IMG/VR virus record: IMGVR_UViG_3300027749_005041
Coordinates: 1 to 22,328 of that record
Reading direction: 5' to 3' (one strand)
Source: a virus
Length of the DNA stretch: 22,328 nt
The notes beneath the pieces were generated by a model, which ran no database searches, was not told the origin of the DNA, and saw nothing but the letters and a program-made list of their open reading frames with translations. Both the position numbers and the translations under genes were made by a program. Numbering within the stretch: the stretch's first letter is position 1; the number at the start of each line of letters is the position of its first letter. Below are positions 823 to 20,466 of the stretch, piece after piece.

Positions 823-1410
823 ATGGCAGAAGAAATAAAAGACGTCAACGCTAAGATTGACGAAGCCGAAGCAGCTATGAAGAAGTATGCTTCTAAAGAC
901 ACCGTTATCAGTATCGGTGGTTATGAATTCACTCCAGCAAAATTAATGGTAGCAGCAACTATCGTATCATCTACCCTTGGTGGGCTTTATGGTGCGTTTG
1001 AAGTATATAAAGACTATCAAAGCATGAAGAAGAAAATTGCAGAATATGCTGCCCCTGATTTAAGCGGCTTTGATAAACGACTGGCTGTTATTGAAGAAAA
1101 CTCTGGTAAAACAAGCGACTATACACGTGACATTAAGAACGATCTTAAGAGTGATATTCGTCGCAATGAATTAGTTACTGAACAAGTTGAGCGCAGTGTT
1201 AAGACGGTACAACGTGAGACTGAAAGTGAAATGAGAGATATGCGTAAAGCAGTTCGCGAAGACTTAGAAAAAGCTCGTAATGAAGCTAATATTATTCGTA
1301 AAGAAATGGCTGATACGCGGAAAGAAATTGAACGTGAAGTGGTTCAATTAAAGAAAGAAGTTGATACTAAGATTCAAAAAGCTGTTGATAACCCATTAGC
1401 TAACAAGTGA
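823..1410 (+). CDS. membrane-anchored coiled-coil protein, 195 aa
   Basis: Starts at an ATG preceded by GGAACT. Residues 1-35 are charged, residues about 38-62 are a hydrophobic segment with small residues (LMVAATIVSSTLGGLYGAF) that should cross the membrane once, and residues about 80-190 are rich in Lys, Glu, Arg and Asp with heptad-like spacing, predicting a long coiled coil. No enzymatic motif is visible. Base composition is slightly less AT-rich than the two upstream genes. The 3' end overlaps the convergent racemase gene by 15 nt. Function unknown; an envelope or tail-associated structural role is possible. Confidence 0.75.
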   Translation: MAEEIKDVNAKIDEAEAAMKKYASKDTVISIGGYEFTPAKLMVAATIVSSTLGGLYGAFEVYKDYQSMKKKIAEYAAPDLSGFDKRLAVIEENSGKTSDYTRDIKNDLKSDIRRNELVTEQVERSVKTVQRETESEMRDMRKAVREDLEKARNEANIIRKEMADTRKEIEREVVQLKKEVDTKIQKAVDNPLANK

Positions 1411-2091
1411 GTGTCTTTGTATAGCAGCCTTAACCAGGCTGTCTATACTGTTAACTATTGGTATATTTTTATAAGTTTTATCTTTAATAGCAAGGGGCAG
1501 CTCGGTACATCCTAATACGATTGCCTGAACTCCCCATTGTTCTAAATTACCTATAACTTGTAATAACAAGTCACGAGCTGCTTCGATATTATTTGCTTTA
1601 ATTAGATCAATAGCTGGCTGTACATAATTATCAATATCTGTTCTACTTGGAGTAATGCATGTCCATCCCTGCTTACTCAAATAATCTTGATATAAACCTA
1701 ACCTCATAGTCGCCTTGGTACCTATCACACCAATTGTACCGGTGTATATTTTTAACGACTTTAATTCATCAGCTACACTACCAACAATATGAGTAATTGG
1801 TGCTCCTAGCTGTACCATTCTATCATACCAAAAATGAGCTGTATTACAAGGTATAACAATGTGATCACACCCTGAGCTCTTAAGACCTATAATACCTTGT
1901 TTAAGCTTATCCCAAGGGAAATCGTCTCGGTTCATTAAACTGGTACTACGATCGGGGACTGTAGGGTCACTCCATAGAACAAAAGGTATGTGTTCCTGAT
2001 CACAAGTGGCAGGAGTTTGATTAATTAGTCTAGTTACAAACTCTGCTGAAGCCGCAGGCCCCATTCCCCCAAGTATACCTAACTTTTTCAT
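1396..2091 (-). CDS. aspartate/glutamate racemase family protein
   Basis: A PLP-independent amino-acid racemase of the Asp/Glu/hydantoin racemase superfamily, 231 aa, full length for the YgeA-like group. The N-terminus has the family glycine-rich start (LGILGGMGPAAS). The two catalytic cysteines are present: Cys82 in PCNTAH and Cys195 in LGCTELPL. It should interconvert L- and D-forms of aspartate, glutamate or related amino acids in the cytoplasm; which one cannot be read from sequence. The start ATG overlaps the stop of the upstream membrane-protein gene (TAATG), so it is the last gene of a four-gene operon with an amino-acid symporter and binding protein. A racemase is unusual cargo for a T4-like phage. 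Confidence 0.9.
   Translation of the reverse strand: MKKLGILGGMGPAASAEFVTRLINQTPATCDQEHIPFVLWSDPTVPDRSTSLMNRDDFPWDKLKQGIIGLKSSGCDHIVIPCNTAHFWYDRMVQLGAPITHIVGSVADELKSLKIYTGTIGVIGTKATMRLGLYQDYLSKQGWTCITPSRTDIDNYVQPAIDLIKANNIEAARDLLLQVIGNLEQWGVQAIVLGCTELPLAIKDKTYKNIPIVNSIDSLVKAAIQRHSLVS
1419..1448. terminator. candidate transcription-stop hairpin at a convergent gene junction
   Basis: An 11-bp stem (GTATAG-CAGCC against GGCTG-T-CTATAC) with one bulged T and a 7-nt loop lies 9 nt after the stop of the plus-strand coiled-coil gene and inside the 3' coding end of the convergent racemase gene. No T-run follows on the plus strand, so it may be a weak or factor-assisted stop, or only an RNA-stabilising hairpin. 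Confidence 0.4.
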
Positions 2092-2699
2092 TACTGTTTC
2101 TTAGAATACAATAAACCAGAAGCAACACCCATTACTGTTTGAGCAATATCTATCTCTGGAGGTTCTTCCTTCCAACCAACACTTATCTGACCAATAAAAA
2201 GACCTGGTTCTACTGGTACACTAATACGACACATAAATTGAGTGCCGTTCTCTTTGTAAGTAAATCCAATATAGCTTTGTGGTCTGGCATACGGACCGCA
2301 AGGTATTTTACCTGACATTAGACCAATAACGTCTTGGTTGTTATCATAATTTTTAGTTAATAATCCTACTTCGGCACCATCATGATCGGTAATTCTACCT
2401 TTAGAACGTGTAGCTAAGAATACTAATTTTCTTGAATTAAGTAAAGTATTAACTTCAAAAATAGCTACTAATTCGGCTTGAGAATTTTTAAATATAAAAT
2501 TACTGGCTGCCTGATAGTTATTATTCATTTTAGGAAGAGCTTGCTGTGCCCGATAAGATGCCATAAATGTATCTTTTTCGGTATACGCAACCCAACCAAC
2601 AAACCCTAATATACTAAGAATAATAACTGCAAACAATCGGAAAGGACTGGATCCTATCCAGCCCAATATATCCAATAACGTCTGCTTTAACTTATCCAT
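2091..2699 (-). CDS. membrane-anchored protein of unknown function, 202 aa
   Basis: One transmembrane helix at about residues 19-38 (SPFRLFAVIILSILGFVGWV), a short cytoplasmic N-terminus, and a soluble domain of about 160 residues that would lie in the periplasm. The soluble domain has two cysteines (in KIPCGPYARP and QFMCRISVP) that could pair, and alternating hydrophobic strands, suggesting a beta-rich fold. No family recognised. It overlaps the symporter gene upstream by 8 nt and the racemase start downstream by 1 nt, so it is translated within the same operon and could be an accessory subunit of the transport system. That role is inference from position. Confidence 0.8.
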   Translation of the reverse strand: MDKLKQTLLDILGWIGSSPFRLFAVIILSILGFVGWVAYTEKDTFMASYRAQQALPKMNNNYQAASNFIFKNSQAELVAIFEVNTLLNSRKLVFLATRSKGRITDHDGAEVGLLTKNYDNNQDVIGLMSGKIPCGPYARPQSYIGFTYKENGTQFMCRISVPVEPGLFIGQISVGWKEEPPEIDIAQTVMGVASGLLYSKKQ

Positions 2700-3960
2700 T
2701 TACTTTCTCTTTGTCACAGACAAAGGCTGTAACAGCAACATTACCGTGAACGTGACTTGCAGTACGAATCATATCCATTAAAGGATCGACTGCAATTAGT
2801 AACACCAGAACTGCTTCACTTGGAAGCTTCAATAAGTCACAAACAACTGCAACTGTAGCAACTGTAAGAATACCGGTTGTACCGGCTGATGCAAGACCTG
2901 CCAAGATACTACCCAGCAATACTACTAGCAACCCTGTTACACCCAGAGGTGCATCATAGATGTTAGCAATAAAGACGGTTGCTATAGCATAGTATACAAT
3001 ACTACCAATACGGTTAACGGTAAAGCTTAGAGGAACGGTCAGCTCAACCCCACCCTTATCAAAATGTAGTTTATGCAATGCTTCTTGTGCATAAGGAATA
3101 CAAGCAAGTGAGCTACGTGAGCTAATAGCAACGATCAAAGTTTCTTTAGTTTCTTTAATAACAGTCATTAAACTTAATCCGCTACGATACCAGATCATAG
3201 CAGTAGCTGCGGCAACCACCAGTACGCCGCCAATAAACTGTTGCATAACAAAATCAAACATTGTTAAGAAAATACCTACACCCACTTTACCAACTTGAGC
3301 AGCAATCATTGCCAATAAAGCAATGGGTAAGAAGTAGTTTAAAAACTTAAAAATACTAATACTTGCTTGTTGAATACTCTTTAGAACTTCAACCAACATA
3401 CGCTGGCCTTCTGTCTGTAGATGTCCAAGAGCAACACCAAAGATTAAACAGAAGATAACAATTTTTAAACTTTCACCATTGTTTAGTGTGTTAAAAATAT
3501 TTTCTGGAATAAACTTTTCAGCCATTTTACCTGCGCTAACTGGTGCGGCTGTTGGCATTGGTTCTTTAAGAGTAATGTTTAAATCAGTACCACTATCTTT
3601 ATCATTAACTAAAGCACCAAGTTGTGTCTTCTTTTCAGGGGTCATTTCTGAACCGGTAATGACCACTGTACCTACACCAATGGTAGCAGCAATAAACATA
3701 CTGCATATAAACCCAACAATAATTTTTCGAATTAGTGTCTGACTACCTTCTTTTTGTAGTAGTCCAATAATACCAACTAAAATAGTTGCAAGTAGGAATG
3801 GAAGAACTACAACTTTAAGTAAGCTGATATAAATGGAACCTAAGCTTTCAAAGTTTAAACTAAACTCCGGAGCATACACCCCGCTCAGTACACCTACAAC
3901 AATTGAGCCTAGAATAGTCCAGGGACTAACTAGGAAACTTTTTAAATGTGATACAGTCAT
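2692..3960 (-). CDS. dicarboxylate/amino acid:cation symporter (DAACS/SDF family)
   Basis: An inner-membrane secondary transporter of the glutamate/aspartate/C4-dicarboxylate symporter family (GltPh, DctA, GltP relatives), 422 aa, complete, with many hydrophobic helices. The serine-rich re-entrant hairpin HP1 is visible at residues 278-284 (AISSRSS), HP2 at about 357-364 (ASAGTTGI), and the helix-8 signature DPLMDMIRT (392-400), where D396, R399 and T400 match the substrate-contacting D394, R397 and T398 of GltPh. Cation-site residues differ: the helix-7 NMDGT motif reads NRIGS (316-320), and GltPh N401 and D405 correspond to H403 and N407. The retained arginine suggests an acidic or zwitterionic substrate; the coupling ion is uncertain. 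Second gene of a late operon. Confidence 0.93.
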   Translation of the reverse strand: MTVSHLKSFLVSPWTILGSIVVGVLSGVYAPEFSLNFESLGSIYISLLKVVVLPFLLATILVGIIGLLQKEGSQTLIRKIIVGFICSMFIAATIGVGTVVITGSEMTPEKKTQLGALVNDKDSGTDLNITLKEPMPTAAPVSAGKMAEKFIPENIFNTLNNGESLKIVIFCLIFGVALGHLQTEGQRMLVEVLKSIQQASISIFKFLNYFLPIALLAMIAAQVGKVGVGIFLTMFDFVMQQFIGGVLVVAAATAMIWYRSGLSLMTVIKETKETLIVAISSRSSLACIPYAQEALHKLHFDKGGVELTVPLSFTVNRIGSIVYYAIATVFIANIYDAPLGVTGLLVVLLGSILAGLASAGTTGILTVATVAVVCDLLKLPSEAVLVLLIAVDPLMDMIRTASHVHGNVAVTAFVCDKEKVNG

Positions 3961-3969
3961 TTTATAACC

Positions 3970-4788
3970 TTATTTCTTTTCAGCTTTATATCGATCCATT
4001 AACTTTTTAGTGTCAATGTTATTGTATTCATTCTTAATAACGTAATTAACAACACTTAACAATTGAATCGCTTTTGGATTCACAGCTATAGCAATATTGT
4101 CTACGCTATCTGAAATTGTAATACTCTTAGTACTAATTGCAGCCTCTGGTTTTTCAAAAGCAATTTTCTTAATTTCAAATTCATCGCGATAAGCGGCTGC
4201 AATTTCACCCTTTACAACTTTATCAATAATCACATCCCATTTATCTTCGGGAAGGAATTGAGCGTTAGGAAAGTTAACACGAGCAAACGTATCATAACTT
4301 GAGTTACGGATAAAACTTATCTTACCGTTGAAGTCTCTAATGACTTGATAAACCTCTCTACCTTGACTGTTTTGACTTAGCCATAAACGATTGACAACCA
4401 AACTTTGTCTTAGTTTAATATAGGGGTCACTGAACCTAACAACTTGTAAACGTGGACCAGTTACTGATAGTTTACTAACTGCTATATCGGCTTTACCCTC
4501 CCGAACTTGCTCTACAACTTCTGCAAAGCTTTCTGCATCACGTCTGAATTGAACTGGTACACCAAGTAGGACCCCAATTCGTCGAGCAATCTCAACATCG
4601 AGACCATGAATAGTTTCCTCATCACCACTGAAAAATGGGGGATTGTCTTTTTTGGTCATAGCTACAATAAGAACGTTGGCTTTCTTAATTGCGGCAACAT
4701 CTGGGGGAAAGGGAACTGTTGATGTTGGTAATTGCGCACTTACCAATGTTGAAAACGCCAAGAACATCATGGCTAATAGATTCTTCAT
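3970..4788 (-). CDS. periplasmic amino-acid-binding protein (solute-binding family 3)
   Basis: A 272-aa secreted solute-binding protein of the type that binds polar amino acids. Residues 1-18 (MKNLLAMMFLAFSTLVSA) are a signal peptide with a probable cleavage after SA. The two-lobe family pattern follows: start strand VLIVAMTKKDNPPFF, GLDVEIARRIGVLLGV (lobe 1 helix), ADIAVSKLSVTGPRLQVVRFSDPYI, which contains the family R before V-x-FS-PY, and GEIAAAYRDEFEI in lobe 2. No lipobox cysteine, so it should be free in the periplasm. Such proteins normally serve ABC importers; here the next gene 9 nt downstream is a DAACS symporter, an atypical pairing. First gene of an operon behind a late-promoter box. 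Confidence 0.9.
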   Translation of the reverse strand: MKNLLAMMFLAFSTLVSAQLPTSTVPFPPDVAAIKKANVLIVAMTKKDNPPFFSGDEETIHGLDVEIARRIGVLLGVPVQFRRDAESFAEVVEQVREGKADIAVSKLSVTGPRLQVVRFSDPYIKLRQSLVVNRLWLSQNSQGREVYQVIRDFNGKISFIRNSSYDTFARVNFPNAQFLPEDKWDVIIDKVVKGEIAAAYRDEFEIKKIAFEKPEAAISTKSITISDSVDNIAIAVNPKAIQLLSVVNYVIKNEYNNIDTKKLMDRYKAEKK

Positions 4789-4809
4789 TATTATGACTCC
4801 ATAAATAAT

Positions 4810-4817
4810 TATTTATA
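4810..4817 (-). promoter_or_regulatory. T4-type late promoter box
   Basis: A perfect TATAAATA on the minus strand, 21 nt before the ATG of the binding-protein gene. In T4 relatives this octamer at -10 is the whole sequence requirement for late transcription by the gp55 sigma factor. A second, weaker box (GATAAATA) lies at 4831-4838. The intergenic region 4789-4879 is divergent; TATAAAAT near 4851 on the plus strand could serve the opposite genes. Confidence 0.65.
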
Positions 4818-4879: not shown

Positions 4880-4996
4880 ATGCTAGATACACTATTATGG
4901 ATCGCAATCGGTGCATTTGTTGGGTGGAATTTCCCCCAACCATTCTGGGCTAAGATAATGCAAGAGAAATTGCAAGCAATGATTGCTAAAAAGTAA
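4880..4996 (+). CDS. small membrane peptide, 38 aa
   Basis: A short ORF with a good ribosome-binding site (AAAAAGGA, 8 nt before ATG). The peptide has one hydrophobic segment with aromatic residues (residues 4-23, TLLWIAIGAFVGWNFPQPFW) and a basic amphipathic end rich in Lys and Gln. The next gene follows after 10 nt with its own AAGGA that overlaps this stop codon, so the two are likely co-transcribed. Unknown function; small single-helix proteins like this are common in T4-like phages. Confidence 0.7.
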   Translation: MLDTLLWIAIGAFVGWNFPQPFWAKIMQEKLQAMIAKK

Positions 4997-5006
4997 AGGA
5001 AATAAA

Positions 5007-5555
5007 ATGGCAGAAGAGAAAAAACCCCTAAGTAGGAGCGAACGTGAAGCTCAAATCAAAGATAAAGCAGGGTGGCTTATTACAGTACTTGCGGCTCTTT
5101 TGGCCATTAATACCTATATTGCTAGTGGCCTTAGTGGTAAAGTACTTAACAATACAATAAAGGCAAACGATACTTGGGCATTCTATCAAGCTAAATCAAT
5201 TAAACAAACCTTGACTGAAATGCGGATGGATGACGCTGTCACCCAGAAGGACTTCAAAAAGGCGGATAAGCTTAAAGAAAAAATTGACCGTTACGAATCA
5301 GATCCAGCAACTGGTGAAGGTAAGAAAGAGTTGATGGCAAAGGCTCGCAATTTGGAAGAAGAACGGGATTCTATTCGCAAGCAGACACCTTGGTTGACAT
5401 TTTCAGGTTCTGCATTCCAAATTGCTATTGTGTTGTTGTCAGCTAGTATCTTAGCTGTTGCACCTGCCCTTTATACAGCCAGTGTTGTAGTTGGTGCAAT
5501 TGCTGCACTACTAATGAGCCAGGGTCTATGGCTCTGGATACCGTTAACTCTGTGA
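5007..5555 (+). CDS. DUF4337-like membrane protein, 182 aa
   Basis: The start at ATG 5007 is preferred over an in-frame ATG 24 nt upstream because AAAGGA lies just before it and the upstream start would overlap the previous gene. Layout: charged N-terminus (about 1-20), a membrane helix (about 23-42), a soluble charged coiled-coil-like middle with NDTWAFYQAKSIKQ (about 54-67), the motif that marks DUF4337 proteins, then two hydrophobic helices near the C-terminus (about 132-180). DUF4337 proteins occur in bacteria and some phages; their function is unknown. The gene end overlaps the convergent peptidase gene by 12 nt. Confidence 0.75.
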   Translation: MAEEKKPLSRSEREAQIKDKAGWLITVLAALLAINTYIASGLSGKVLNNTIKANDTWAFYQAKSIKQTLTEMRMDDAVTQKDFKKADKLKEKIDRYESDPATGEGKKELMAKARNLEEERDSIRKQTPWLTFSGSAFQIAIVLLSASILAVAPALYTASVVVGAIAALLMSQGLWLWIPLTL

Positions 5556-6251
5556 TACAATAAACTCGGCTTCAGGTATTCGTACCTTGCCGTTTTTACT
5601 TCCAAGTACAATAACAATACGGCGGCCAACTTCCGTATCTAACATCATCACAATGCAGCCCCCGGCTGCATTTGTTGTTCCGGTCTTACTAACAATAAAA
5701 CTATGACGTTTACCAACGATAGGGTTGGTGTTATTAAATGTTTGTATTTTCTTTCCTACCTGAATACTTAAGACAGCGGTACGACTGGCTTGAATTATTT
5801 CTGGGTAATGACTTGCTTCAAATACTAGTTTTAATAAATCAAGCGCAGTACTGATATTCATTGGACTGAGTCCTGTTGGCTCTATAAACTTAGTTCTCAA
5901 CATACCCAAGTAGTTTGCTTTCTCGTTCATGTAGCGAACACATTCAAAACGACCACCTGGGAAGTTATCGCACAATACCATTGCAGAATTATTATCTGAC
6001 TTTACCAATGCCAGTTGAATGTGTTGTTCTCTGGTATACTTACCAATCTTTTCTTGCATGTTCTGATTATTATCTAGAACGGCCATGACTGTCATTAACT
6101 TGGTAATGCTTGCAATAGACCGAACCTCGGTAATGTTTGATCCTTCAATCAAGTTACCTTGATCGTCGGTCTCCAACCAGCTGTGAGCAGTTATGTTGAC
6201 CGCGAACGCATTACTAGCAAATAGTAATGCTGAGAGTATAAGCGCTCTCAT
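5544..6251 (-). CDS. D-alanyl-D-alanine endopeptidase/carboxypeptidase, S11 (PBP7-like)
   Basis: A penicillin-binding-protein-type serine peptidase acting on peptidoglycan in the periplasm. Residues 1-17 (MRALILSALLFASNAFA) form a signal peptide. All three active-site motifs are present in order: S48-I-T-K51 (nucleophile Ser48), S85-D-N87 and K189-T-G191. At 235 aa it is shorter than typical host DacA enzymes and lacks the C-terminal membrane-anchoring domain, so it is closest in form to PbpG/PBP7 endopeptidases, which cut D-Ala-mDAP cross-links. A phage could use it to loosen the wall for lysis or to remodel it against superinfection. It follows the fMet-like tRNA by 35 nt. Confidence 0.88.
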   Translation of the reverse strand: MRALILSALLFASNAFAVNITAHSWLETDDQGNLIEGSNITEVRSIASITKLMTVMAVLDNNQNMQEKIGKYTREQHIQLALVKSDNNSAMVLCDNFPGGRFECVRYMNEKANYLGMLRTKFIEPTGLSPMNISTALDLLKLVFEASHYPEIIQASRTAVLSIQVGKKIQTFNNTNPIVGKRHSFIVSKTGTTNAAGGCIVMMLDTEVGRRIVIVLGSKNGKVRIPEAEFIVSQS

Positions 6252-6286: not shown

Positions 6287-6357
6287 TGCGGGGGAAGGTT
6301 GCGCGCCTCCGACCTCTGGATTATGAGTCCAGCGCTCTACTACTGAGCTACCCCGCG
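6287..6357 (-). tRNA. tRNA with CAT anticodon, initiator-like acceptor, abnormal D and T loops
   Basis: Cloverleaf on the minus strand: acceptor CGCGGGG/CCCCGCA (6351-6357 with 6287-6293) with a C1-A72 mismatch, the hallmark of bacterial initiator tRNA; D arm GCTC-AGTAGTA-GAGC; anticodon arm CTGGA-CTCATAA-TCCAG; T arm GGAGG-CGCGCAA-CCTTC. CCA is not encoded (TCC follows). Oddities: the T loop lacks TTC, having C54, G55 and C58, and the D loop has A where G18 is expected. The anticodon stem lacks the third G:C pair of true initiators, and 11-24 is C:G. It may be a divergent fMet-like tRNA, an elongator, or a decaying gene. Its 5' end contains the stop codon of the glycosyltransferase gene. Confidence 0.75.
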
Positions 6358-7100
6358 TTATTGGTATATTGGTTCCAGGGATATTTGTCGGAATAAATTT
6401 CCGCATATTTTCGGTTCCCTTCAAAAAAGAATCCGGCTTGAACTGATCCATCATTTCCCCCTAACCTGTAATTGAGTGTGTATTTACCTGTGCACGCATA
6501 ATTATCGTGCTTAATATGATCTTTTAAAATAGTATAAAATCTTCTATCCCCACCCCACCCGTAATCCCAAAGGTGGCAAACTTGACGATAAAAGTCTGTC
6601 CTAAAACAATATGAGCTTGTATCAATAAGGTAAGCATCCTTGTTTACCCATGCTGGCCATCTACCTAAAGACTCACAATTATCTGCTGTAACGTAGTTTT
6701 TATCTTTATCAAAAATTTGTCTGAGTGAATAAGCCCAATCAAGTTTTTTACTCTCAATAATATTTATCAGTGTGTCTACGTGATCGGGTTCAAACCAATT
6801 ATCCTGATCTAGAAAGAGAACATAATCGTGATTGATAAGATGGCCAAACCCAGCCATGATTCTGTGACCGTAAAAGCCCCCGCTACCGGTGTTAAATGGT
6901 AAGTCAATTCGTCTAAGTTTTCCATTCGTTTTAATTCCTGCATCATATAATGTATTATCTACTCGATTTGAAAAACGAACACCGTCAACAACTAAGAGAT
7001 GTTCAACTATTTTATTCGTCTGATTCTGTACAGACTTAATTGCATCTACTAGTTCAGGTGACCCTGTTGTAGGTGTAATAACTAAAATACTCAATCCCAC
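6348..7100 (-). CDS. glycosyltransferase, GT-A fold (family 2-like), 250 aa
   Basis: A cytoplasmic nucleotide-sugar-dependent glycosyltransferase. The N-terminus has the GT2 pattern (LSILVITPTTG, then AIKSVQNQT and a strand LLVVDG), with the donor-binding acidic motif in YVLFLDQDNWFEPDHV (about residues 92-107). It ends NNAG at a TAG that lies at positions 8-10 of the fMet-like tRNA, an overlap of 10 nt. The start overlaps the stop of the upstream gene by 10 nt. It sits about 5 kb from the main glycan cluster and probably modifies a surface glycan or phage protein; acceptor unknown. Confidence 0.85.
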   Translation of the reverse strand: MGLSILVITPTTGSPELVDAIKSVQNQTNKIVEHLLVVDGVRFSNRVDNTLYDAGIKTNGKLRRIDLPFNTGSGGFYGHRIMAGFGHLINHDYVLFLDQDNWFEPDHVDTLINIIESKKLDWAYSLRQIFDKDKNYVTADNCESLGRWPAWVNKDAYLIDTSSYCFRTDFYRQVCHLWDYGWGGDRRFYTILKDHIKHDNYACTGKYTLNYRLGGNDGSVQAGFFFEGNRKYAEIYSDKYPWNQYTNNAG

Positions 7101-7872: not shown

Positions 7873-7948
7873 TGGTACACCCGAAGGGACTCGAACCCCT
7901 AGCCAAGGGATTATGAGTCCCCTGCTCTAACCATTGAGCTACAGGTGT
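7873..7948 (-). tRNA. tRNA, CAT anticodon (elongator Met or Ile2), CCA encoded
   Basis: A canonical cloverleaf on the minus strand: acceptor ACACCTG/CGGGTGT, D arm GCTC-AATGGTTA-GAGC, anticodon arm GGGGA-CTCATAA-TCCCT, T arm AGGGG-TTCGAGT-CCCTT, discriminator A and an encoded CCA at 7873-7875. A CAT anticodon means either elongator Met or, if the host lysidine synthetase modifies C34, isoleucine at AUA codons. AUA appears often in this low-GC DNA, which would make Ile2 useful, but identity is not settled here. It sits 1 nt after the stop of the secreted-protein gene and 4 nt before the AbrB-like start. Confidence 0.95.
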
Positions 7949-9085: not shown

Positions 9086-9595
9086 TTACAGTTCGAGACC
9101 TTGTGGGTCTTCTGTAAGTAGTTGGGGTTTAGTTTTTTTAGGTTTAGCTTCTGAAGTATCTTTAACTTCGATCTTCTTAGGCTTTTTATGTTCAGGAATA
9201 ATACGCTCAAGGAAAACCTTTAGCATACCATTGAACATTTCGGCATTTTGAACTTCAATTTGATCGTCGAGTGCAAAAGTACGAGTGAAGGCACGATTGG
9301 CGATTCCCTTAAACAGGAAATTTTCTTCGGCTTCGTTTGATTGAACATTACCCTTGATTAACATCTTACCATCAACAAGTTCGATCTCGATATCTTGTCT
9401 AGCGAACCCTGCAACAGCTACTTCAACAACGTAAGTATTGTCGCCTGTCTTTTTAATGTTATATGGGGGGTAGTTAGGAATATTTTTTGTCATATCGTCA
9501 TGCATTTTAGCAAGACGAGTGAACTGGTCATCAAAACCAACAAAAAATTTATCCATGTCCTTAAAACCAGGACCAAATGTCTGAAGTAAAGTCAT
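9086..9595 (-). CDS. Hsp20 small heat-shock protein (IbpA-like)
   Basis: A 169-aa small heat-shock chaperone. The N-terminal arm (about 1-45) contains the IbpA-type YPPYNI motif just before the alpha-crystallin domain (about 46-135), which includes VAVAGFARQDIEIELVDGKM and the conserved GMLKVFLE (G-x-L-x-V-x-L) with the RIIPEHKKPKKI tail of bacterial class A Hsp20. The C-terminus is extended and Lys/Pro/Thr-rich. It should bind unfolding proteins in the cytoplasm, and aquatic T4-like phages often carry such a gene, perhaps for capsid assembly. Its start overlaps the phasin-like gene by an ATGA, so the two are translationally coupled. Confidence 0.93.
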   Translation of the reverse strand: MTLLQTFGPGFKDMDKFFVGFDDQFTRLAKMHDDMTKNIPNYPPYNIKKTGDNTYVVEVAVAGFARQDIEIELVDGKMLIKGNVQSNEAEENFLFKGIANRAFTRTFALDDQIEVQNAEMFNGMLKVFLERIIPEHKKPKKIEVKDTSEAKPKKTKPQLLTEDPQGLEL

Positions 9596-12775: not shown

Positions 12776-13516
12776 TCATTTCCAGCTCAGTGCTACTTCT
12801 TTCGTTGGCATGGTACCATTATACTTGTCAATACAGTACTGTCTTTCTTTTGCGTCTAATTCCTGAAATTTAGGATCGCGGAAGGCAGAAGAGCCGTGCT
12901 CTCTAAAGCAAACCAAAACATCATCTAGCATAATAGGGTCACCATGGTAGTAATAAGACCGGTAGAAATATTCACCGTCTACTATCCAGAGTAAGTCATC
13001 GTCCATTTCAATTGCGCAATTATTTCTTACTGCATAATTTGAAGGATTACCAGTAGTATTATCACCATTGACGTACTTGTTACCGTACCAGGGGCGTCTG
13101 GTATCAAAGAACTGGGTCCGGTCTTCATTACTGTGAGTGAACCCGGATATAAACCATTTACCGTCTGGGTTATTATCAAATGCATTAGAGATTTTAAGTA
13201 ATGCATCCTGATCTACGAAGTAATCATCCATGTAGAGTAATTTAATTATCTCCCCTGTAGCATGCTTGACTGCATTGTTTACATTATTGGCAGCATTCTT
13301 TTTATTACTGGTATTTTTAATATACCTAATATCTAGAACGTGTGAAAATGTATCACAGATGGTTTTAAGGTTATCACCTTCACTTTGATCAGATATTACA
13401 ACATCGAAATCTTTAAACGTCTGATACATCAGATGTGAAAAATATTCTACTAAGAATCTCTCAGCAGTTTTATTTTTCATTGTGTATACAGGACAACAAA
13501 TAGATATTTTAGACAT
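12776..13516 (-). CDS. glycosyltransferase family 2, 246 aa
   Basis: A GT-A fold enzyme with the family opening SKISICCPVYTM, the nucleotide-binding strand VVISDQSEGDN, and the catalytic acidic motif ATGEIIKLLYMDDYFVDQDA (about residues 88-107, with MDD in place of DxD). ATG 13516 is chosen over an in-frame TTG six bases upstream. It overlaps the GDPD-like gene by 8 nt and is the last gene of the glycan cluster in transcription order. Donor and acceptor sugars are unknown. Confidence 0.87.
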   Translation of the reverse strand: MSKISICCPVYTMKNKTAERFLVEYFSHLMYQTFKDFDVVISDQSEGDNLKTICDTFSHVLDIRYIKNTSNKKNAANNVNNAVKHATGEIIKLLYMDDYFVDQDALLKISNAFDNNPDGKWFISGFTHSNEDRTQFFDTRRPWYGNKYVNGDNTTGNPSNYAVRNNCAIEMDDDLLWIVDGEYFYRSYYYHGDPIMLDDVLVCFREHGSSAFRDPKFQELDAKERQYCIDKYNGTMPTKEVALSWK

Positions 13517-13949
13517 AATCAACGCATACCCCGTGTATACCTAATAGTTTATATTTTTCAAAATTTACATTTGGATAAAAATCCAGAAGAACTTGATTAT
13601 AGGAAAATACGTTTTGAGGCTTAGGGTAAGTCCAAACATTTCCTTGAGAAGTCAAAGTATAATTATCTTTATCATGAAAGAAATAATTAAACCCTCTGTA
13701 CCTATACAACTCTGCACTTGCTTGGAGGTTCTTACAATGTATCCATAATCTTGTCTTCATTGATATAAGATAATCCATAGGGACGGGGTATGTCGGTTCA
13801 TCATGTCCAAGATAAAGATCGTTATTATGAACCCAAAGATCAATTTCTATATCGTGCCCTTGATTGATACAATAATCAATTACTTCGGGTTTATTTTCAT
13901 TATCTGGATCAGGTCCAAATGTATTACCTCGATGACAAATAATTTTCAT
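13509..13949 (-). CDS. glycerophosphodiester phosphodiesterase-like (GDPD/PI-PLC fold), 146 aa
   Basis: Shows the GDPD signature: His6-Arg7-Gly8, the metal-binding Glu35 and Asp37 in DIEIDLW, and His49 in YLGHDEPT. Full GDPD enzymes are about 240-300 aa, so at 146 aa this is a short form that may lack the second half of the barrel and its later metal ligand. It lies in an operon with a sugar nucleotidyltransferase and an SDR, which suggests work on a phosphorylated or glycerol-linked sugar, such as making or trimming a glycerol-phosphate substituent; that is inference. The 3' end overlaps the following glycosyltransferase. Confidence 0.8.
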   Translation of the reverse strand: MKIICHRGNTFGPDPDNENKPEVIDYCINQGHDIEIDLWVHNNDLYLGHDEPTYPVPMDYLISMKTRLWIHCKNLQASAELYRYRGFNYFFHDKDNYTLTSQGNVWTYPKPQNVFSYNQVLLDFYPNVNFEKYKLLGIHGVCVDYV

Positions 13950-14605
13950 TAGATTAGCTTAGGTGCGCCTAGTGGTTGTACGTTAAGGTACTTCTTCCAG
14001 GGTTGACCTTTATCAACACGCTTAAGTTTAGTAAAACCTTTTTTACGGATAACAATATTATCACCTGGTTCGTACTTACCGTCAATACACTCTTTTACCA
14101 CTTCAGCAACTTGTAGTGTAGAAAGTCTGGTACGCTTATCCTCACCGGGGTAATCGTTTTCTCTCATCTTAGTATCTACACGCCCAGGGCTAACAGAATA
14201 CGCTTTATAGCCCTCAAAACCTAATGACTGTACAAAAGAAATAACTCCAGATTTAGAAGCTGAATAACCACTGTGTTCAGGTTTACCGTACATACCGGCT
14301 ACCGATGCAATAAAGATCATAGTTTTAACCCCGGAATTAATTGATTCTCTAGCAACAATAAAGCTACCAACTAAATTAACATCAATTTCTTCTTTCCAAT
14401 AATCAATGTTAGAATCTTTTACAACTTGAACATGAGAGATACCCGCACAGTTAACAATTACATCTGGCTTGTATTTCTCTAACGTGTTACGTACCTGTAA
14501 AGCATCTCTAACATCACATTCTCCTTTTGGAATGTTTACTGTGTCAGGGTAAAGTTGTTTAATACCTTCACCTATATCACTCTTACCAAAAATTAATACT
14601 TTCAT
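13949..14605 (-). CDS. short-chain dehydrogenase/reductase, 218 aa
   Basis: Classical SDR fold. The cofactor loop reads FGKSDIGEGI (residues 6-15), a variant of TGxxxGIG; NCAG is at 52-55, and the catalytic set is N77 (DVNLVG), S101 (IASVAG), Y114 and K118 (YSASK), all present. It should oxidise or reduce a hydroxyl or keto group on a small substrate with NAD(P), probably a sugar nucleotide given the neighbours. It touches the GDPD-like gene by 1 nt and overlaps the nucleotidyltransferase gene by 4 nt, so the three are coupled. Confidence 0.9.
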   Translation of the reverse strand: MKVLIFGKSDIGEGIKQLYPDTVNIPKGECDVRDALQVRNTLEKYKPDVIVNCAGISHVQVVKDSNIDYWKEEIDVNLVGSFIVARESINSGVKTMIFIASVAGMYGKPEHSGYSASKSGVISFVQSLGFEGYKAYSVSPGRVDTKMRENDYPGEDKRTRLSTLQVAEVVKECIDGKYEPGDNIVIRKKGFTKLKRVDKGQPWKKYLNVQPLGAPKLI

Positions 14606-15327
14606 AATACAACGTCCCCGTTTTCAACTTTATCTAAAAAAATTTCTAATTCATAAGGTGTACCAAGCATATGTTTTTTGTTAACATCAACTTCGTATAT
14701 CGACACATTACCTAACCCTGCAATCAACTCATTGTATGCAGGTGCAATATAAAACTCATTATTAGTTCTAATATTTTTAGCAATCATCATAACTACACTT
14801 TCGATATACTCATTACCCTGTCGGAAGTAATAGATGCCCGCGCATGCTTTATCGGAAATAACTTTCTTTTCAGCTACTTCTATAACTTGACCTTTTTTAA
14901 CCTTAGCATAACTGTGATGGGGGTTGGTTGAATTAAATACTACCAGAGACCCATCCCGCACCTTAGATTGTTCTAAGAAGTCATCAAAGTCCCATTCAAG
15001 ATATTGATCACAGTTTGCAATAACTAACGGCTTAGAATTATTAATATAAGGTAGTGCCATCAACGTGGTGCACGCAGCACCCTCAGTAACAATATCCAAA
15101 GGAATAATTGTACCTTGTTGCTCAAGAAATTCTTGAAGCCCGTTATCTAAATGTTCTTTCAATGCAATAAAAATAAAATTACATTGGCTATGTTTAGAAG
15201 TAAGAGAATCAATGACTCGTTTAATCATTGGAACGCCAACTACATCAATCATTGGTTTAGGTTCTTTGTAACCACTTTCAACAAATCGCTGACCTCTACC
15301 GGCCATTGGAATAACTACATTAATCAT
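14602..15327 (-). CDS. sugar-phosphate nucleotidyltransferase, 241 aa
   Basis: Activates a sugar-1-phosphate (or similar phosphorylated alcohol) to its nucleotide form. Signature motif VIPMAGRGQRFVESGYKEPKP (about residues 5-25) carries the G-x-G-x-R nucleotide loop and the KP lysine; ANCDQYLEWD (about 99-108) supplies the Mg-binding Asp. The size matches stand-alone RmlA/CTP-type transferases. AAGGAT precedes the start. The exact nucleotide cannot be told; pairing with an SDR and a GDPD-like protein would also fit a CDP-linked substrate. Confidence 0.9.
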   Translation of the reverse strand: MINVVIPMAGRGQRFVESGYKEPKPMIDVVGVPMIKRVIDSLTSKHSQCNFIFIALKEHLDNGLQEFLEQQGTIIPLDIVTEGAACTTLMALPYINNSKPLVIANCDQYLEWDFDDFLEQSKVRDGSLVVFNSTNPHHSYAKVKKGQVIEVAEKKVISDKACAGIYYFRQGNEYIESVVMMIAKNIRTNNEFYIAPAYNELIAGLGNVSIYEVDVNKKHMLGTPYELEIFLDKVENGDVVL

Positions 15328-15338
15328 TTAAATCCTTA

Positions 15339-16016
15339 TTATGGAAATCTAGCTAAGATTTCTTCGTTTATTGGAATTTTGCTGCGCAGACGATCGCAAT
15401 AATCTCTGGTACATAAACTTGTTAGTAGGTGACCACTCAATTGTGGTTCCTCACTCATAAAGTGAATATTTTCGGCACCCATGATAGGAGCAAGTATAGA
15501 GTAGAAGTTGTGCATATGATTAAAATCATACTTAACTTCACCGTTAGTAAGTACATTAAAACCTTGAACTACTTGATCGTGAAGTCTCTTTGGCCATGCA
15601 TAAAATGTATCCCCTACAAACTGCTGACTTTCCCAAAAACCATTTCCTTCTCGGGAAGTAATATTAAACTTATCCCAATCCAAATTAAATTCTTCTAAAC
15701 TTTTATTGTAATGAATGTCAAATCTTGTCATAATATAGAAATCAATATAATCATTACCTGTTACTGTAGAGGCTTTTGTACGGGTAGTATTTTGATGACT
15801 ACCTTCAAATGATATGCTAATTAATTTCTTAGGATTAAGTAGTTTATTAACTTCATCCATTCTATCGTTATCATACGTAACGACATAATTATGTACAGAA
15901 TGGTTTTTTTTAAGAGGTTGGATTATGTTGCGGTCAATATTAGGAAAACAATGATTAAAGTCTCTTTCTGATTTATGACCGAATGATATACCTACAAATA
16001 TTAATGCAACATTCAT
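15339..16016 (-). CDS. putative glycosyltransferase-like protein, 225 aa
   Basis: Not clearly assigned. The N-terminus is a Rossmann-like strand (MNVALIFVGISFG) and the middle has YNYVV-type strands and DFYIMTRFDIHYNKSLEEF (about residues 91-109), where TRFDI resembles the acidic donor-site motif of some polysaccharide glycosyltransferases. The C-terminal part has QFVGDTFYAWP. Its place between a nucleotidyltransferase and a glycosyltransferase supports a glycan role. A perfect late-promoter box lies 21 nt before its ATG, so this gene and those downstream may be switched on late. Confidence 0.65.
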   Translation of the reverse strand: MNVALIFVGISFGHKSERDFNHCFPNIDRNIIQPLKKNHSVHNYVVTYDNDRMDEVNKLLNPKKLISISFEGSHQNTTRTKASTVTGNDYIDFYIMTRFDIHYNKSLEEFNLDWDKFNITSREGNGFWESQQFVGDTFYAWPKRLHDQVVQGFNVLTNGEVKYDFNHMHNFYSILAPIMGAENIHFMSEEPQLSGHLLTSLCTRDYCDRLRSKIPINEEILARFP

Positions 16017-16036
16017 ATGACCCTTTAATTAAATTT

Positions 16037-16774
16037 TTATTTATAATTAAATTGCTGCATAAATGGTTCTTGAGCTAATTCTTTACTATGTGACAGGTAA
16101 TCTTGGTAAATAGCATTCAGCTTTTCTTCATTAGTATTATGCTGTGTACCATAGCCCTTAGCAAAATCTGATGGGGGTATTTTAGTTTGTATTTGTAGTT
16201 TTCTTTTAACTGCTTCTGTATTATACGGTGAGAATCCATACCAGAGAACAACCATTTTTTCTGTTGTATGTGGCGTATCAAAATGTCTGCCAAGAGGATA
16301 AACATATAAACGTTTACTATGAATAACTCTTGATCTTCTTATTTTAGATGCACCATCGTTATAATGCATACCATATGTCTTTTGTTCAACCAAGGACTTA
16401 GTAGGGGCTGGAATAATTTCTGGCTTATCGTCTACCATTACACAGCAAGGAAGAACCAGATTATCACTCGTTGCATTATCAAGAATAGAATAATCACCAA
16501 CTAAAAATTCTGTGACATTAAGACACATTTTCCAACCAGGGTATTGACTTTCATAATCAATTACCTCGTCATCACAAAGTTTAGCATCAAAGAATTCATT
16601 CCTTGATTTAACAATAGTCCATGTCGGGCATATCTTTTTAATAATCTCAACAGATGAATCGGTAGAATTATAATCGATCATAACCCCGTGATCAAAATAC
16701 TTCTTATGATGCTCAAGCCACCAAGGGAGTAAATACTCTTCATTAAAAAAATGAGTAACAACGGTTTTACGCAT
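16037..16774 (-). CDS. glycosyltransferase, family 2/92-like, 245 aa
   Basis: The start KTVVTHFFNEEYLLPWWLEHH (the N-E-E-x-L-L-P-W-W-L-x-H-H form) is the signature of the Glyco_tranf_2_4 group, followed by a strand with the acidic site VMIDYNSTDSSVEI (about residues 31-44). The remainder has many conserved-looking aromatic and His residues. It should act in the cytoplasm on a surface glycan. The stop codon TAA lies within the TATAAATA late box of the next gene. Confidence 0.85.
   Translation of the reverse strand: MRKTVVTHFFNEEYLLPWWLEHHKKYFDHGVMIDYNSTDSSVEIIKKICPTWTIVKSRNEFFDAKLCDDEVIDYESQYPGWKMCLNVTEFLVGDYSILDNATSDNLVLPCCVMVDDKPEIIPAPTKSLVEQKTYGMHYNDGASKIRRSRVIHSKRLYVYPLGRHFDTPHTTEKMVVLWYGFSPYNTEAVKRKLQIQTKIPPSDFAKGYGTQHNTNEEKLNAIYQDYLSHSKELAQEPFMQQFNYK
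16038..16045 (-). promoter_or_regulatory. T4-type late promoter box
   Basis: A perfect TATAAATA on the minus strand, 21 nt before the ATG at 16016, the same spacing as at 4810-4817. It overlaps the stop codon of the upstream gene, so it would be an internal late promoter dividing the glycan cluster. Confidence 0.55.
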
Positions 16775-16783
16775 AATTAACTT

Positions 16784-17332
16784 TCAAAATTTTGGATCTA
16801 ATTTATAATCTTCAAACGACATAGCGTTTTTATCTTTATCGGAGATTATAGCTTTATTTCTTGCAAAAGGCAAGTCAAGCATCAACGTAGTATCAAGGGG
16901 GCATATTGCACTTTCCGATTCAGCGTTGTGTACGGCAGAACAACTGTAACAGAAGTGAGTCTCTTCTTCTAAAGAAATAAACGCATGACCGAACCCAGGT
17001 GGTACCCAGACTTGTTTAAAATTATCTTCCGATAGGTACACCATAACGTATTTACCGAATGTAGAAGAATTAGCACGCAAGTCAACCGCTACATCTATAC
17101 CTGCACCTTTTACTACTCGACATAACTTACCCATCGGGTTATTCCATTGATAATGGATACCCCTGATAACATATTTGTGAGACATAGAGTGATTGTCTTG
17201 CACGAACGTCACACCAAGTATTTGTTCAACAAGAGGGTTAAGAGACTCAGTAAAGAAACCACGGTGATCAGAATAAACTGGTCTTTCGATTATCTTAACA
17301 TCTGGTATAAAAGGATTAGATTCAATTTTCAT
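16784..17332 (-). CDS. RmlC-like sugar 3,5-epimerase (cupin), 182 aa
   Basis: A dTDP-4-keto-6-deoxysugar epimerase-type cupin. Family motifs: DHRGFFTES (22-30), QDNHSMS (45-51), RGIHYQ with catalytic His60, GKLCRV with Lys69, IDVAVDLRANSSTFG, and WVPPGFGHAF (109-118). The position that normally holds the catalytic tyrosine (as in the SAPYNP context of known enzymes) reads SAVHNA, with His135. Loss of this tyrosine is expected to change which carbon is epimerised, or to leave a different chemistry. It is full length. Neighbours suggest a deoxysugar or amino-deoxysugar product. Confidence 0.9.
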   Translation of the reverse strand: MKIESNPFIPDVKIIERPVYSDHRGFFTESLNPLVEQILGVTFVQDNHSMSHKYVIRGIHYQWNNPMGKLCRVVKGAGIDVAVDLRANSSTFGKYVMVYLSEDNFKQVWVPPGFGHAFISLEEETHFCYSCSAVHNAESESAICPLDTTLMLDLPFARNKAIISDKDKNAMSFEDYKLDPKF

Positions 17333-17334
17333 AA

Positions 17335-18054
17335 TTAATATTTCTGTATAATATTTCTCAAGTCTTGTTTAGACTGCTCATTCCATCTTCTATGTGAACC
17401 TGCCACGTAGTGCATACCCATTAAATTACCTAATTCATTTTTAAAATAGCAATCACCATAATAGGTAGCATCAGTCTGCCAGGCTAACGTTTTAATTTGG
17501 TTATCTAAGATGTGTTTTCTTATTTTCCAACCAACTTCGACAAACCCTGTTGACCGATTTTGATCTACTTCTTGTTGCGTTAATACCCAGCTCTTAGATC
17601 TTGCAAGGTTGATGTCATAGTATGAACCAAAACAACAAGGTATGTTTTTAAAATTATCTGGATTAATATTTACCCATTGGCTGGTATCCTTGCCATCGTT
17701 GTATTCCGTACCTACGGCTTTATACCCTTGTTCGAATTTATCTATAATGTAGTAATGTATATTATTATTTAATACAAAGTAATCAGAATCAATAATAGAT
17801 ACTATACCTGTAGTACAAAACGTTAAACCGTAATCTATAGCCCTACCGTGGGAAAGACCGTCAAAGGTTGGAGTACTGTTACAGTACACATATTGATAGT
17901 CTTCAGTTTCCGGTAAAACTCTTTTTTCAGAGTTCGGGGTATTGTCTACTACAATTAAATTGTAATGTTTTCTATCGAATCTCTTCTTGAAATTTTCAAC
18001 CTGTAGTTCTAGTAGGTCATAATTCCTATAGATTACTGTTACATAATCAATCAT
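17335..18054 (-). CDS. glycosyltransferase family 2, 239 aa
   Basis: GT-A fold. The N-terminus has DYVTVIYRNYDLLELQVENF, then a strand LIVVDNTPN (about residues 33-41) and the acidic donor site VSIIDSDYFVL (about 87-97, with DSD as the DxD motif). The C-terminal part has WQTDATYYGDCYF and a His/Trp-rich end (MHYVAGSHRRWNEQ), likely in acceptor binding. It overlaps the epimerase gene upstream by 8 nt and ends 2 nt before the RmlC-like start codon, so all are co-transcribed. Confidence 0.87.
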   Translation of the reverse strand: MIDYVTVIYRNYDLLELQVENFKKRFDRKHYNLIVVDNTPNSEKRVLPETEDYQYVYCNSTPTFDGLSHGRAIDYGLTFCTTGIVSIIDSDYFVLNNNIHYYIIDKFEQGYKAVGTEYNDGKDTSQWVNINPDNFKNIPCCFGSYYDINLARSKSWVLTQQEVDQNRSTGFVEVGWKIRKHILDNQIKTLAWQTDATYYGDCYFKNELGNLMGMHYVAGSHRRWNEQSKQDLRNIIQKY

Positions 18055-18937
18055 TATATTCTATATAATCTTTTCTAATTACAACGTTTGTCGATGGATC
18101 TTTGTAACATTCAATAACACTATTAACAGTTGACTCAATTGTTTCTGTAAACTTAAAGTCATAGTCTTTGCAAAGCTTATCTGTATTAATATCGAAGTTA
18201 TATGCTCCTGCAGTATTGCCTTTATCTACAATTTCAATTCCTAGCTTCTTACTAACATAACTAGAAATCTCGTCCACTGTAGCAGTAAATGAAGCCATAT
18301 TATACATACCAGGAATAAAGTTATGTCTGCCTTGGTATACTATGCGCTCGACAGCCCGCACAAGATCTTCAATGCATAGGATAGAACGATTAATATGTTT
18401 ATTAGCAACCGTAATCTTACCTTCATTAAGTGCATTATACACCATCATATTAATCATAAGGTCGCGGCGAATAACAGGGCTTCCTCCATTAACTGTACCG
18501 AATCTTAAACCTAAGAGCTGTCTGCCTTGGGCAAGATATTTTTGAGCAGCAATATCTAGAGTAATTTTAGTAAGATCGTAGTTATTAAGAATTTCTAACG
18601 ACATTTTATTTTCAAAAGACATATTATCTGAATTACCGTAAACAGATGCACTGCTTGCGTAAATAATTTTAGTATCCTTAGAAGTCTTTTCTACAAGGTT
18701 AATAAAATTACGGACGTTATTATGCCATGGTGATCTGATATCACCAACACACATCTGTACACTTGAATGCCCAGCTAAAAGAATAATTGTCTTAAATGGT
18801 TCAAGAAACTTTGTAGTAAGTTTATTATAGTCATTAGATCTATTACCATAAACTTCTACTTCATGATTATGACTTCTTAAATAAGGTACTAAACGCGAAC
18901 CAATATAGCCGCTACCACCAATTACTAAAATACTCAT
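18047..18937 (-). CDS. NAD-dependent sugar epimerase/dehydratase (extended SDR), 296 aa
   Basis: Extended SDR of the GalE/RmlB/WcaG type. The NAD loop GGSGYIG is at residues 7-13, the SSASVYG strand with the catalytic Ser at about 95-101, and the YxxxK pair at Y120 and K124 (YDLTK). LRFGTVNGG and NRSILCIEDLVRAV are further family marks. It is slightly short for GalE (about 330 aa). The product cannot be fixed; it could supply the keto or epimerised sugar used by the adjacent DegT aminotransferase. Confidence 0.9.
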   Translation of the reverse strand: MSILVIGGSGYIGSRLVPYLRSHNHEVEVYGNRSNDYNKLTTKFLEPFKTIILLAGHSSVQMCVGDIRSPWHNNVRNFINLVEKTSKDTKIIYASSASVYGNSDNMSFENKMSLEILNNYDLTKITLDIAAQKYLAQGRQLLGLRFGTVNGGSPVIRRDLMINMMVYNALNEGKITVANKHINRSILCIEDLVRAVERIVYQGRHNFIPGMYNMASFTATVDEISSYVSKKLGIEIVDKGNTAGAYNFDINTDKLCKDYDFKFTETIESTVNSVIECYKDPSTNVVIRKDYIEYND

Positions 18938-18938
18938 A

Positions 18939-20018
18939 TTATGTTCCTGTATATTCGTTCAACGTCTTAATAATGTGTTCAGTATCAGCAAGATTCAGCC
19001 ACCACCCGTTAGGTATACAAACTTGTGTATCTGTAAACGCTGATACACCAGGTAAGTCACCTTCTCTGAATTGAGTAATACTACTATACATGTCATTTCT
19101 AAAATGAACCGGGCTTGATGCAATAAAATTTTCAGTTAAGTATTGAGTAAAGTGATCTTTAAGGCCAGGCTTGACATGCATACTGAATAACCAGTATGAA
19201 CAGTTAGGATCCCATTCAGGCAAGGTCAATAACGGGTTTTTAACCTTGTTAATATATTCTCTAGAATTTCTTCTGCTACAAGTTACAGAGTATTCTGCTT
19301 TACTAATATTAGATAAACCAATAGAGGCATTAATATCGTTCATATGATACTTAAACCCAACTTTAGTAATGTCTTGCGTACATCTAAAAGACTCATTTTT
19401 GGTTCTGTCTAAACCATACCAGCGAAGTGTTCGTGCTTCGTTTTCTGTATCAGGTGGGCATATTAAAATACCACCGTCCCCTGTAGTCAAAAATTTAATT
19501 GCTTGAAAACTGTAGCAAATATAATCTCCGCGTTCTAATATATCTGTTGCATGCACATCCCAGCAATGAGCAGCATCTTCAATAACCGGGACACCTGTTG
19601 CCTTGAGAGCTTTATAATCACAAAACTTACCAGCCCAGTTAACAGCTAAAATAGCTTTAGTTTTAGGTGTAACTAATTTTTTAACTGACTCAGGATCAAT
19701 CAAGCCTGTCAAAGGATCAATATCAGCCCAACGAATTCTTGCACCACGATGAATTGCACCAACATTAGAGGCAAAACACGTCTGTGGCGTAGCAATAACC
19801 TCATCCCCAGGTTTAATACCGATTATATCCAGAGATAGATCAATAGCAGCGGTACAGGAATTAACTGTCACCGGTCTTGTCTTACTACCTAATACTTTCC
19901 ATAGTTCATCTTCAAACTCTTCTACAACAGGACCTTGACCGATAAAACCGGACTTTAAAACTTCTGTAACTCTGTCTGCGGTAACGTCAGACATTCCTAC
20001 TTTAAATAACGGAATCAT
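18939..20018 (-). CDS. DegT/DnrJ/EryC1 family PLP sugar aminotransferase, 359 aa
   Basis: Transfers an amino group, usually from glutamate, to a keto-sugar nucleotide. Start ATG 20018 gives the family opening IPLFKVGMSDV; an ATG further upstream lies well inside the GNAT gene. Motifs: SGFIGQGPVVEEFE (23-36), NSCTAAIDL (53-61), PLP-contacting Asp148 in VIEDAAH, and Lys175 in SFQAIKFLTTGDGG for the Schiff base. Full length. Between an epimerase/dehydratase and a GNAT acetyltransferase, it should produce an amino-deoxysugar that is then N-acetylated. Confidence 0.95.
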   Translation of the reverse strand: MIPLFKVGMSDVTADRVTEVLKSGFIGQGPVVEEFEDELWKVLGSKTRPVTVNSCTAAIDLSLDIIGIKPGDEVIATPQTCFASNVGAIHRGARIRWADIDPLTGLIDPESVKKLVTPKTKAILAVNWAGKFCDYKALKATGVPVIEDAAHCWDVHATDILERGDYICYSFQAIKFLTTGDGGILICPPDTENEARTLRWYGLDRTKNESFRCTQDITKVGFKYHMNDINASIGLSNISKAEYSVTCSRRNSREYINKVKNPLLTLPEWDPNCSYWLFSMHVKPGLKDHFTQYLTENFIASSPVHFRNDMYSSITQFREGDLPGVSAFTDTQVCIPNGWWLNLADTEHIIKTLNEYTGT

Positions 20019-20466
20019 ATTGATACTCCATAAAAAATAAATTATCGTTTTCACCTGTTACTTTAAAGTTCAGGCCTTCGTATGTTTTAAATGCTCGTGT
20101 ATTAGTTTTTAATACTTCAAGCCGAATAGGTAATGATTTGTGACATTGGTCAACAAGAAACTTAAAAATAACTTTACCTAATCCTTTGTCTCTGTATTCA
20201 GGTACCAGTCCCCCTGTTAATAAAAACTCATCTTCATTTTTATGAACGACACCAAAACCAGCATCAACAATACATACCCCGTGTTCGATAGCATATGCAA
20301 TGTAAAGATCGTATTTACGGAACGCAGTCTTAAACCACTCTTCTTGCTGCTCTGGGGTAATGTAGTCTGTACTACGCGTCATATATTCCCTACACTTATT
20401 ACGTATAGTACGAAGGATTTCTGCCTCTGCAGGCGTTGTAACTCTTTTAAAAACTATCTGTGTCAT
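20002..20466 (-). CDS. GNAT N-acetyltransferase, 154 aa
   Basis: Acetyl-CoA-dependent N-acetyltransferase. The GNAT core is visible as a beta strand with DAGFGVVHKN, the strand LLTGGLVPEYR and the CoA-binding loop RDKGLGKVIFKFL (R/Q-x-x-G-x-G/A, about residues 92-104), then a helix and the final strand with FKVTGENDNLFFMEY. Its end overlaps the aminotransferase start by 17 nt and its start overlaps the glycosyltransferase by 4 nt. Acetylation of the amino sugar made next door is the simplest role. Confidence 0.88.
   Translation of the reverse strand: MTQIVFKRVTTPAEAEILRTIRNKCREYMTRSTDYITPEQQEEWFKTAFRKYDLYIAYAIEHGVCIVDAGFGVVHKNEDEFLLTGGLVPEYRDKGLGKVIFKFLVDQCHKSLPIRLEVLKTNTRAFKTYEGLNFKVTGENDNLFFMEYQYDSVI

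Follow-up and report, generated by a model that had tools for sequence, protein, structure and literature searches.

What does a T4-like phage gain from a late operon that encodes a secreted amino-acid-binding protein, a transporter of the glutamate-transporter fold, a membrane-anchored protein and an amino-acid racemase? These genes lie on the minus strand of the window, which is the whole 22,328-nucleotide stretch of IMG/VR record IMGVR_UViG_3300027749_005041 that was analyzed. An earlier note, made from the letters of this DNA, had read them as a late operon whose products capture, transport and racemize amino acids. We characterized the four products together with their relatives in viral and bacterial genomes. 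We give about even chances to the view that the operon holds a two-part acidic-amino-acid transporter, which was acquired horizontally, was built into the late lysis unit of T4-like phages and imports late. The gene structure and linkage are well supported, and the function is what we infer from them.

Operon structure and late promoter

The operon consists of the following features.

4817-4810, minus strand: T4-type late promoter box TATAAATA, 21 nt ahead of the first ATG and conserved in related loci
3970-4788, minus strand: SBP, secreted family-3 amino-acid-binding protein of 272 aa (Pfam PF00497)
2692-3960, minus strand: SYM, transporter of the SDF/DAACS fold, 422 aa (Pfam PF00375)
2091-2699, minus strand: P202, putative diverged T4-type holin (gpT), assigned from a profile-profile match, the predicted fold and lysis-gene neighbors
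1396-2091, minus strand: RAC, two-cysteine racemase of the Asp/Glu type (Pfam; NCBIfam NF052483)

All four ORFs called in the window are intact and follow one another with gaps of 9, -8 and -1 nt, which confirms the tight spacing behind a late box that had been described before. The box TATAAATA alone is not significant in the window (two matches versus 4.3 expected by shuffling); of 59 distinct related loci, 33 have it no more than 130 nt ahead of the first gene, against a background of 0.007, and CATAAATA is found upstream of the first gene in many of the others. In many relatives (L022, L024, L071, L098, L099 and others), the late box is just 13-15 nt from the ATG, and leaderless late mRNAs are therefore predicted. 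PHROG matches in the window include T4-type genes, namely those for a sliding clamp, both clamp-loader subunits and a RegA-type repressor. Taken together with the Pfam identities of the products and the conservation of the late box, they uphold the earlier view of these genes as a late operon with which a T4-like phage captures, transports and racemizes amino acids. Because the third gene is identified below as a probable T4-type holin gene, the gene order reads as a capture, transport, holin and racemase unit.

Several other genes surround this unit. A gene for a DUF4337 membrane protein (4983-5555) is divergent from the operon and recurs beside it, and a gene for a secreted S11 D,D-carboxypeptidase (5544-6251) has relatives near the operon in several other phages. 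The stretch at 6306-6361, which shares 91-94% identity with tRNA-Met genes from Rhizobium phages and was not called by ARAGORN, is possibly a tRNA remnant; the tRNA-Met that ARAGORN called in the window is located at 7873-7948. An Hsp20-type small heat-shock protein is encoded at 9086-9595, and 12776-22295 is taken up by a long series of genes of the glycosyltransferase, nucleotide-sugar and aminotransferase-like kinds, which probably serve surface-sugar synthesis.

Conservation of the operon in viral genomes

The possibility that these genes are never co-located elsewhere, which had been raised with the original reading, was decisively refuted by a search for co-occurrence across viral and bacterial genomes. 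With the transporter as the query, IMG/VR yielded 40 loci; with an alignment as the query, it yielded at least 86, down to 62% identity. Related operons are thus present in more than 80 IMG/VR loci, mainly on large T4-like contigs, some of which reach 350-525 kb. The viral contigs are metagenomic, and their IMG sample numbers suggest that the phages are of freshwater origin. In one 524-kb contig (IMGVR_UViG_3300027749_002876; loci L075 and L119), the complete operon occurs twice, in differing copies about 195 kb apart, which may be real or the product of a chimeric assembly. A tblastn search of a phage database returned only distant transporter matches, several of them in records resembling bacterial contigs.

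Gene maps showed that the order of binding protein, SDF transporter and third gene is kept in essentially every sufficiently long locus. The transporter and third genes overlap in 53 of the 59 distinct loci and are at most 50 nt apart in the rest. A chance gene order was rejected, as this arrangement is maintained in more than 80 loci. The dN/dS ratio was about 0.04-0.07 in the comparisons for which dS could be computed.

These results bear on the simplest alternative, plain nutrient scavenging, in which the adjacency to a holin gene is an accident of gene order. In its favor, the gene order of long late operons is stable in T4-like phages, and transport genes occur in many phages. However, the order is constant while the flanking genes and the orientation vary among the viral loci, and the transporter pair and the holin are found together on varied backgrounds at 50 to 98% identity. 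We consider an accidental adjacency improbable.

Binding protein and transporter

SBP matches SBP_bac_3 (PF00497, 8.1e-18), its PDB matches are amino-acid-binding proteins, and a Sec-type signal peptide was recognized by eye (MKNLLAMMFLAFSTLVSA, followed by Q at the predicted cleavage site). Arg113 and Asp202 correspond to the usual α-carboxylate and α-amino ligands of the family; both are present in 107 of 107 phage homologs, and in 24 and 22 of 24 bacterial homologs, respectively. SBP is hence a family-3 solute-binding protein by its PF00497 match and its ligand Arg and Asp. Pairing with an ABC importer was ruled out, since neither the window nor the related loci that were read have an ABC permease or ATPase gene beside the one for SBP. 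The earlier note had called the combination of a family-3 binding protein with an SDF protein unusual, and this view stands. We found no prior description of the operon, or of the type VI link presented below, in open-access papers. The arrangement is similar to TRAP and TTT systems, in which a secreted binding protein likewise serves a secondary-type permease, but the permease there is DctM or TctA and the phage unit has no small membrane subunit. No DctM/DctQ permease adjoins SBP, and the sole permease that does is the SDF protein.

SYM gave an SDF match (PF00375) of 6.5e-68, with 230 bits versus a cut-off of 27.9. It shares with DAACS/SDF proteins (GltPh, GltTk, DctA and GltP) the fold and the TM8 substrate Arg and Asp, and these residues, Asp396 and Arg399 (D394 and R397 in GltPh), are kept in 110 of 110 phage homologs. 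Unlike these proteins, SYM has an obligate binding-protein neighbor and, in the alignment to GltPh, the sequence NRIGS in place of the Na+-site motif NMDGT (the Na+ sites of SDF transporters are defined in PMC5110648). The Na3 Asp (D312 in GltPh) is replaced by Ile, Val or Leu, and M311 by Arg, in all 110 phage homologs, so that the canonical NMDGT with its Na3-site Asp occurs neither in SYM nor in any of them. Ordinary SDF proteins of the bacterial order in which relatives of the operon occur mostly retain this Asp (20 of 25). A change of the TM8 Asp405 to Asn is common in ordinary SDF proteins of the same bacteria and hence not distinctive.

Transporters of other folds are known to have become Na+-independent through an Arg that stands in for a bound cation, and the residues of SYM suggest that it is likewise Na+-independent. 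The label of DAACS symporter given to this protein was accordingly right as to the SDF family and doubtful as to symport, because the canonical Na+-site residues are gone. SYM represents an SDF subfamily that always adjoins a binding protein.

Identification of the third gene product as a probable holin

The third product had been described as a membrane-anchored unknown. The membrane helix was borne out, and profile, fold and neighbors now point to a T4-type holin. With P202 as the query, Pfam gave no match above the cut-off (DUF4383 was rejected as below the cut-off and patchy) and a PDB sequence search found nothing. When the P202 family was compared by hhalign with a profile of ten T4/T5-type holins, the two matched with Prob 91.7 and an E-value of 7.6e-7 and were colinear over 162 columns. 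A narrower profile gave 89.7%, and unrelated controls gave 0.3-1.0; the comparison was negative with T4 T alone and positive only with the family profile that includes T5-type holins. PF11031, which represents the classical T holin, matched 0 of 27 P202 family members and had no match in 13 large contigs, 11 of which contain a GH19-like gene.

The AF2 model of P202 (pLDDT 90) shows helices at residues 2-16 and 19-54 followed by an α/β domain, and in every family member a short N-terminal helix precedes one membrane helix and a periplasmic domain. This predicted topology is that of gpT, with a short cytoplasmic part, one transmembrane helix and a periplasmic GAF-like domain. In Foldseek, the model matched the crystal structures of the periplasmic domain of T4 holin T (6px4, 6psk and 6pxe) with TMt values of 0.61-0.67 (0.67 for 6px4), although other GAF domains matched too; it also resembles annotated viral holins in fold. 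A P202 relative at a locus without the transporter (L278) lies between Rz1-like and GH19 endolysin-like genes, both weakly matched, and another, in phage MW202825, is located upstream of a lysozyme gene. We conclude that P202 is a diverged T-type holin with a predicted capacity for hole formation, which would make the operon part of a lysis unit. A second holin-like gene, 28% identical, follows the racemase gene at two loci (L072:8599-9351 and L082:4100-4852).

P202 thus matches T4 holin T in profile, topology and fold, and both are encoded with a secreted partner. They differ in that P202 is outside PF11031, that its secreted partner is an amino-acid-binding protein with a fold unlike that of antiholin RI, and that the phage operon additionally holds a transporter and a racemase. 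In T4, secreted RI binds the periplasmic GAF-like domain of T (PMC11413866), and this domain is required only for regulation (PMC12162936). Because T4 uses a secreted protein to regulate its holin via this same domain, ligand-controlled lysis is the main rival to uptake. The binding protein, alone or via the SDF protein, would take the role of RI and signal the presence of amino acids outside the cell to the holin by way of its periplasmic domain, shifting lysis earlier or later, while the bacterial counterparts would report the lysis of prey or kin to the type VI machine. The holin gene is the sole other gene never separated from the binding protein/transporter pair, and the altered ion sites of the SDF protein, its pairing in bacteria with a second, more degenerate member, and the embedding of the bacterial copies in type VI operons would all suit such sensing. 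However, metabolism is indicated by the intact substrate residues of the phage transporters and by the presence of a racemase or dehydrogenase partner. In addition, the pair is missing next to some holin relatives (at 6 of the 56 loci whose upstream sequence was long enough), and contact between the binding protein and the holin is hypothetical. We regard lysis control by ligand sensing as possible, if doubtful.

Racemase and its replacement

RAC matches Asp_Glu_race of Pfam (2.9e-38), its PDB matches are aspartate racemases, and both Cys motifs are present (PCNTAH with C82 and GCTELP with C195). The model of cysteate racemase CuyB (NCBIfam NF052483) gave 211 bits, above the curated cut-off of 190, which all racemases tested exceeded. 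In contrast, models of glutamate racemase MurI gave 26-29 bits versus cut-offs of 147-328. RAC therefore resembles CuyB and aspartate racemases in passing the curated model and in having two catalytic cysteines; the context of CuyB is cysteate degradation, whereas that of RAC is lysis and transport. GltTk and EAATs carry D-aspartate besides L-aspartate (PMC6482001), so that a racemase would suit an SDF transporter as a partner.

The four-gene set proposed at the outset holds in part, as the racemase gene is common but optional. It follows the holin gene at most loci, after an insertion at three, and is missing from the clade of the most divergent phages (L106-L113) and a few other loci. At L088 (7936-9111), the position of the racemase gene behind the binding protein, transporter and holin genes is taken by a gene for a DadA-like D-amino-acid dehydrogenase, whose best match (434 bits) is below the cut-off of 494.

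The presence of a racemase at most loci, and of this dehydrogenase at one, would fit a change in the envelope, in which altered D-Asp and D-Glu pools weaken the wall before lysis or block superinfection; so would the D,D-carboxypeptidase gene at 5544-6251, which is two genes from the operon. This explanation is quite unlikely in our view, since the racemase is of the cysteate/aspartate type and not MurI, the divergent phages have none, and the carboxypeptidase gene belongs to a separate unit that is not always near the operon.

Bacterial relatives and type VI secretion operons

Among bacteria, the closest relative is one Burkholderiales MAG that carries a close binding protein/SDF pair (63 and 65%) without a holin. 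In the SYM tree, its transporter is sister to all phage transporters (100/96) and nested among bacterial ones, a position that fits acquisition by phages from a bacterium of this kind. Searches within the same order turned up more distant relatives, and 16 genomes carry a block of binding protein, SDF, (racemase) and second SDF genes after those for TssG, ClpV, VgrG, a MORN protein and DUF4280; where the sequence was read further, TssK, TssL and TssM were identified downstream by Pfam. The block, of which we found no description in open-access papers, has the gene types, order and motif of the phage operon, but has a second SDF gene where the phage has a holin gene and is situated between the DUF4280 and TssJKLM genes. 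At one of these loci (L152:11546-13015), an MscS-type channel with a cyclic-nucleotide-binding domain is encoded directly after the second SDF protein. Two loci (L209 and L210) have binding protein, SDF and racemase genes with no type VI genes in the stretch read, and neither the window nor the related phage loci that were read show Tss genes beside the module. The binding protein/SDF pairing is fixed in this bacterial lineage, mostly inside type VI operons.

The TM7 Arg is present in 20 of 22 first and 10 of 16 second bacterial SDF proteins; a further 5 of the second ones have Lys at this position. Some bacterial relatives show weaker conservation of the substrate residues, which have for the most part been replaced in the second SDF proteins. 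The type VI racemases, except for an outlier (L161), form their own clade (95/94) apart from the phage racemases. Derivation of the phage racemase from type VI operons was rejected on account of this separate clade, whose join to the phage racemases the tree does not resolve; separate recruitment of the two is therefore possible.

A broader idea would cover both settings: the binding protein and an ion-independent SDF protein may form a ligand-gated control unit in two unrelated killing decisions, type VI firing and holin triggering, whose timing is set by the amino acids of lysing neighbors. We offer this as speculation that is rather unlikely to hold.

Proposed function

In the uptake reading, to which we return here, one late mRNA would give the secreted binding protein, the SDF-fold transporter, the T4-type holin and usually the racemase. 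The binding protein would collect an acidic amino acid in the periplasm, at a site shown by conservation, and hand it to an SDF trimer, whose retained substrate Arg and Asp are consistent with import. Transport is probably not driven by three Na+, given the invariant Arg for the Met of NMDGT and the loss of the Na3 Asp, and would depend on the binding protein as in TRAP, with an unrelated permease. The racemase, judged by its family, may interconvert D- and L-forms of aspartate, cysteate or glutamate. The overlap of the transporter and holin genes would tie the dose of uptake to that of the holin, so that uptake may peak just before lysis, when L- and D-amino acids released by neighbors could feed late synthesis.

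This reading is supported by the linkage in more than 80 loci, the gene overlap, the low dN/dS, the invariant ligand and substrate residues, the racemase or dehydrogenase partner, and the same pairing in bacteria, often with a racemase. On the other hand, a cell that will soon lyse has little time to benefit, and the strict linkage to holin or type VI genes exceeds the needs of nutrient uptake. The lack of a racemase in the most divergent phages and the weaker conservation of substrate residues in bacteria also argue against it, and the acidic substrate is itself deduced from sequence.

If the uptake reading is correct, the operon would extend the binding-protein-dependent secondary transporters by a third kind, based on the fold of glutamate transporters, and phage lysis would be tied directly to amino-acid uptake or sensing. 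Related parts of the same uptake system occur inside type VI secretion operons.
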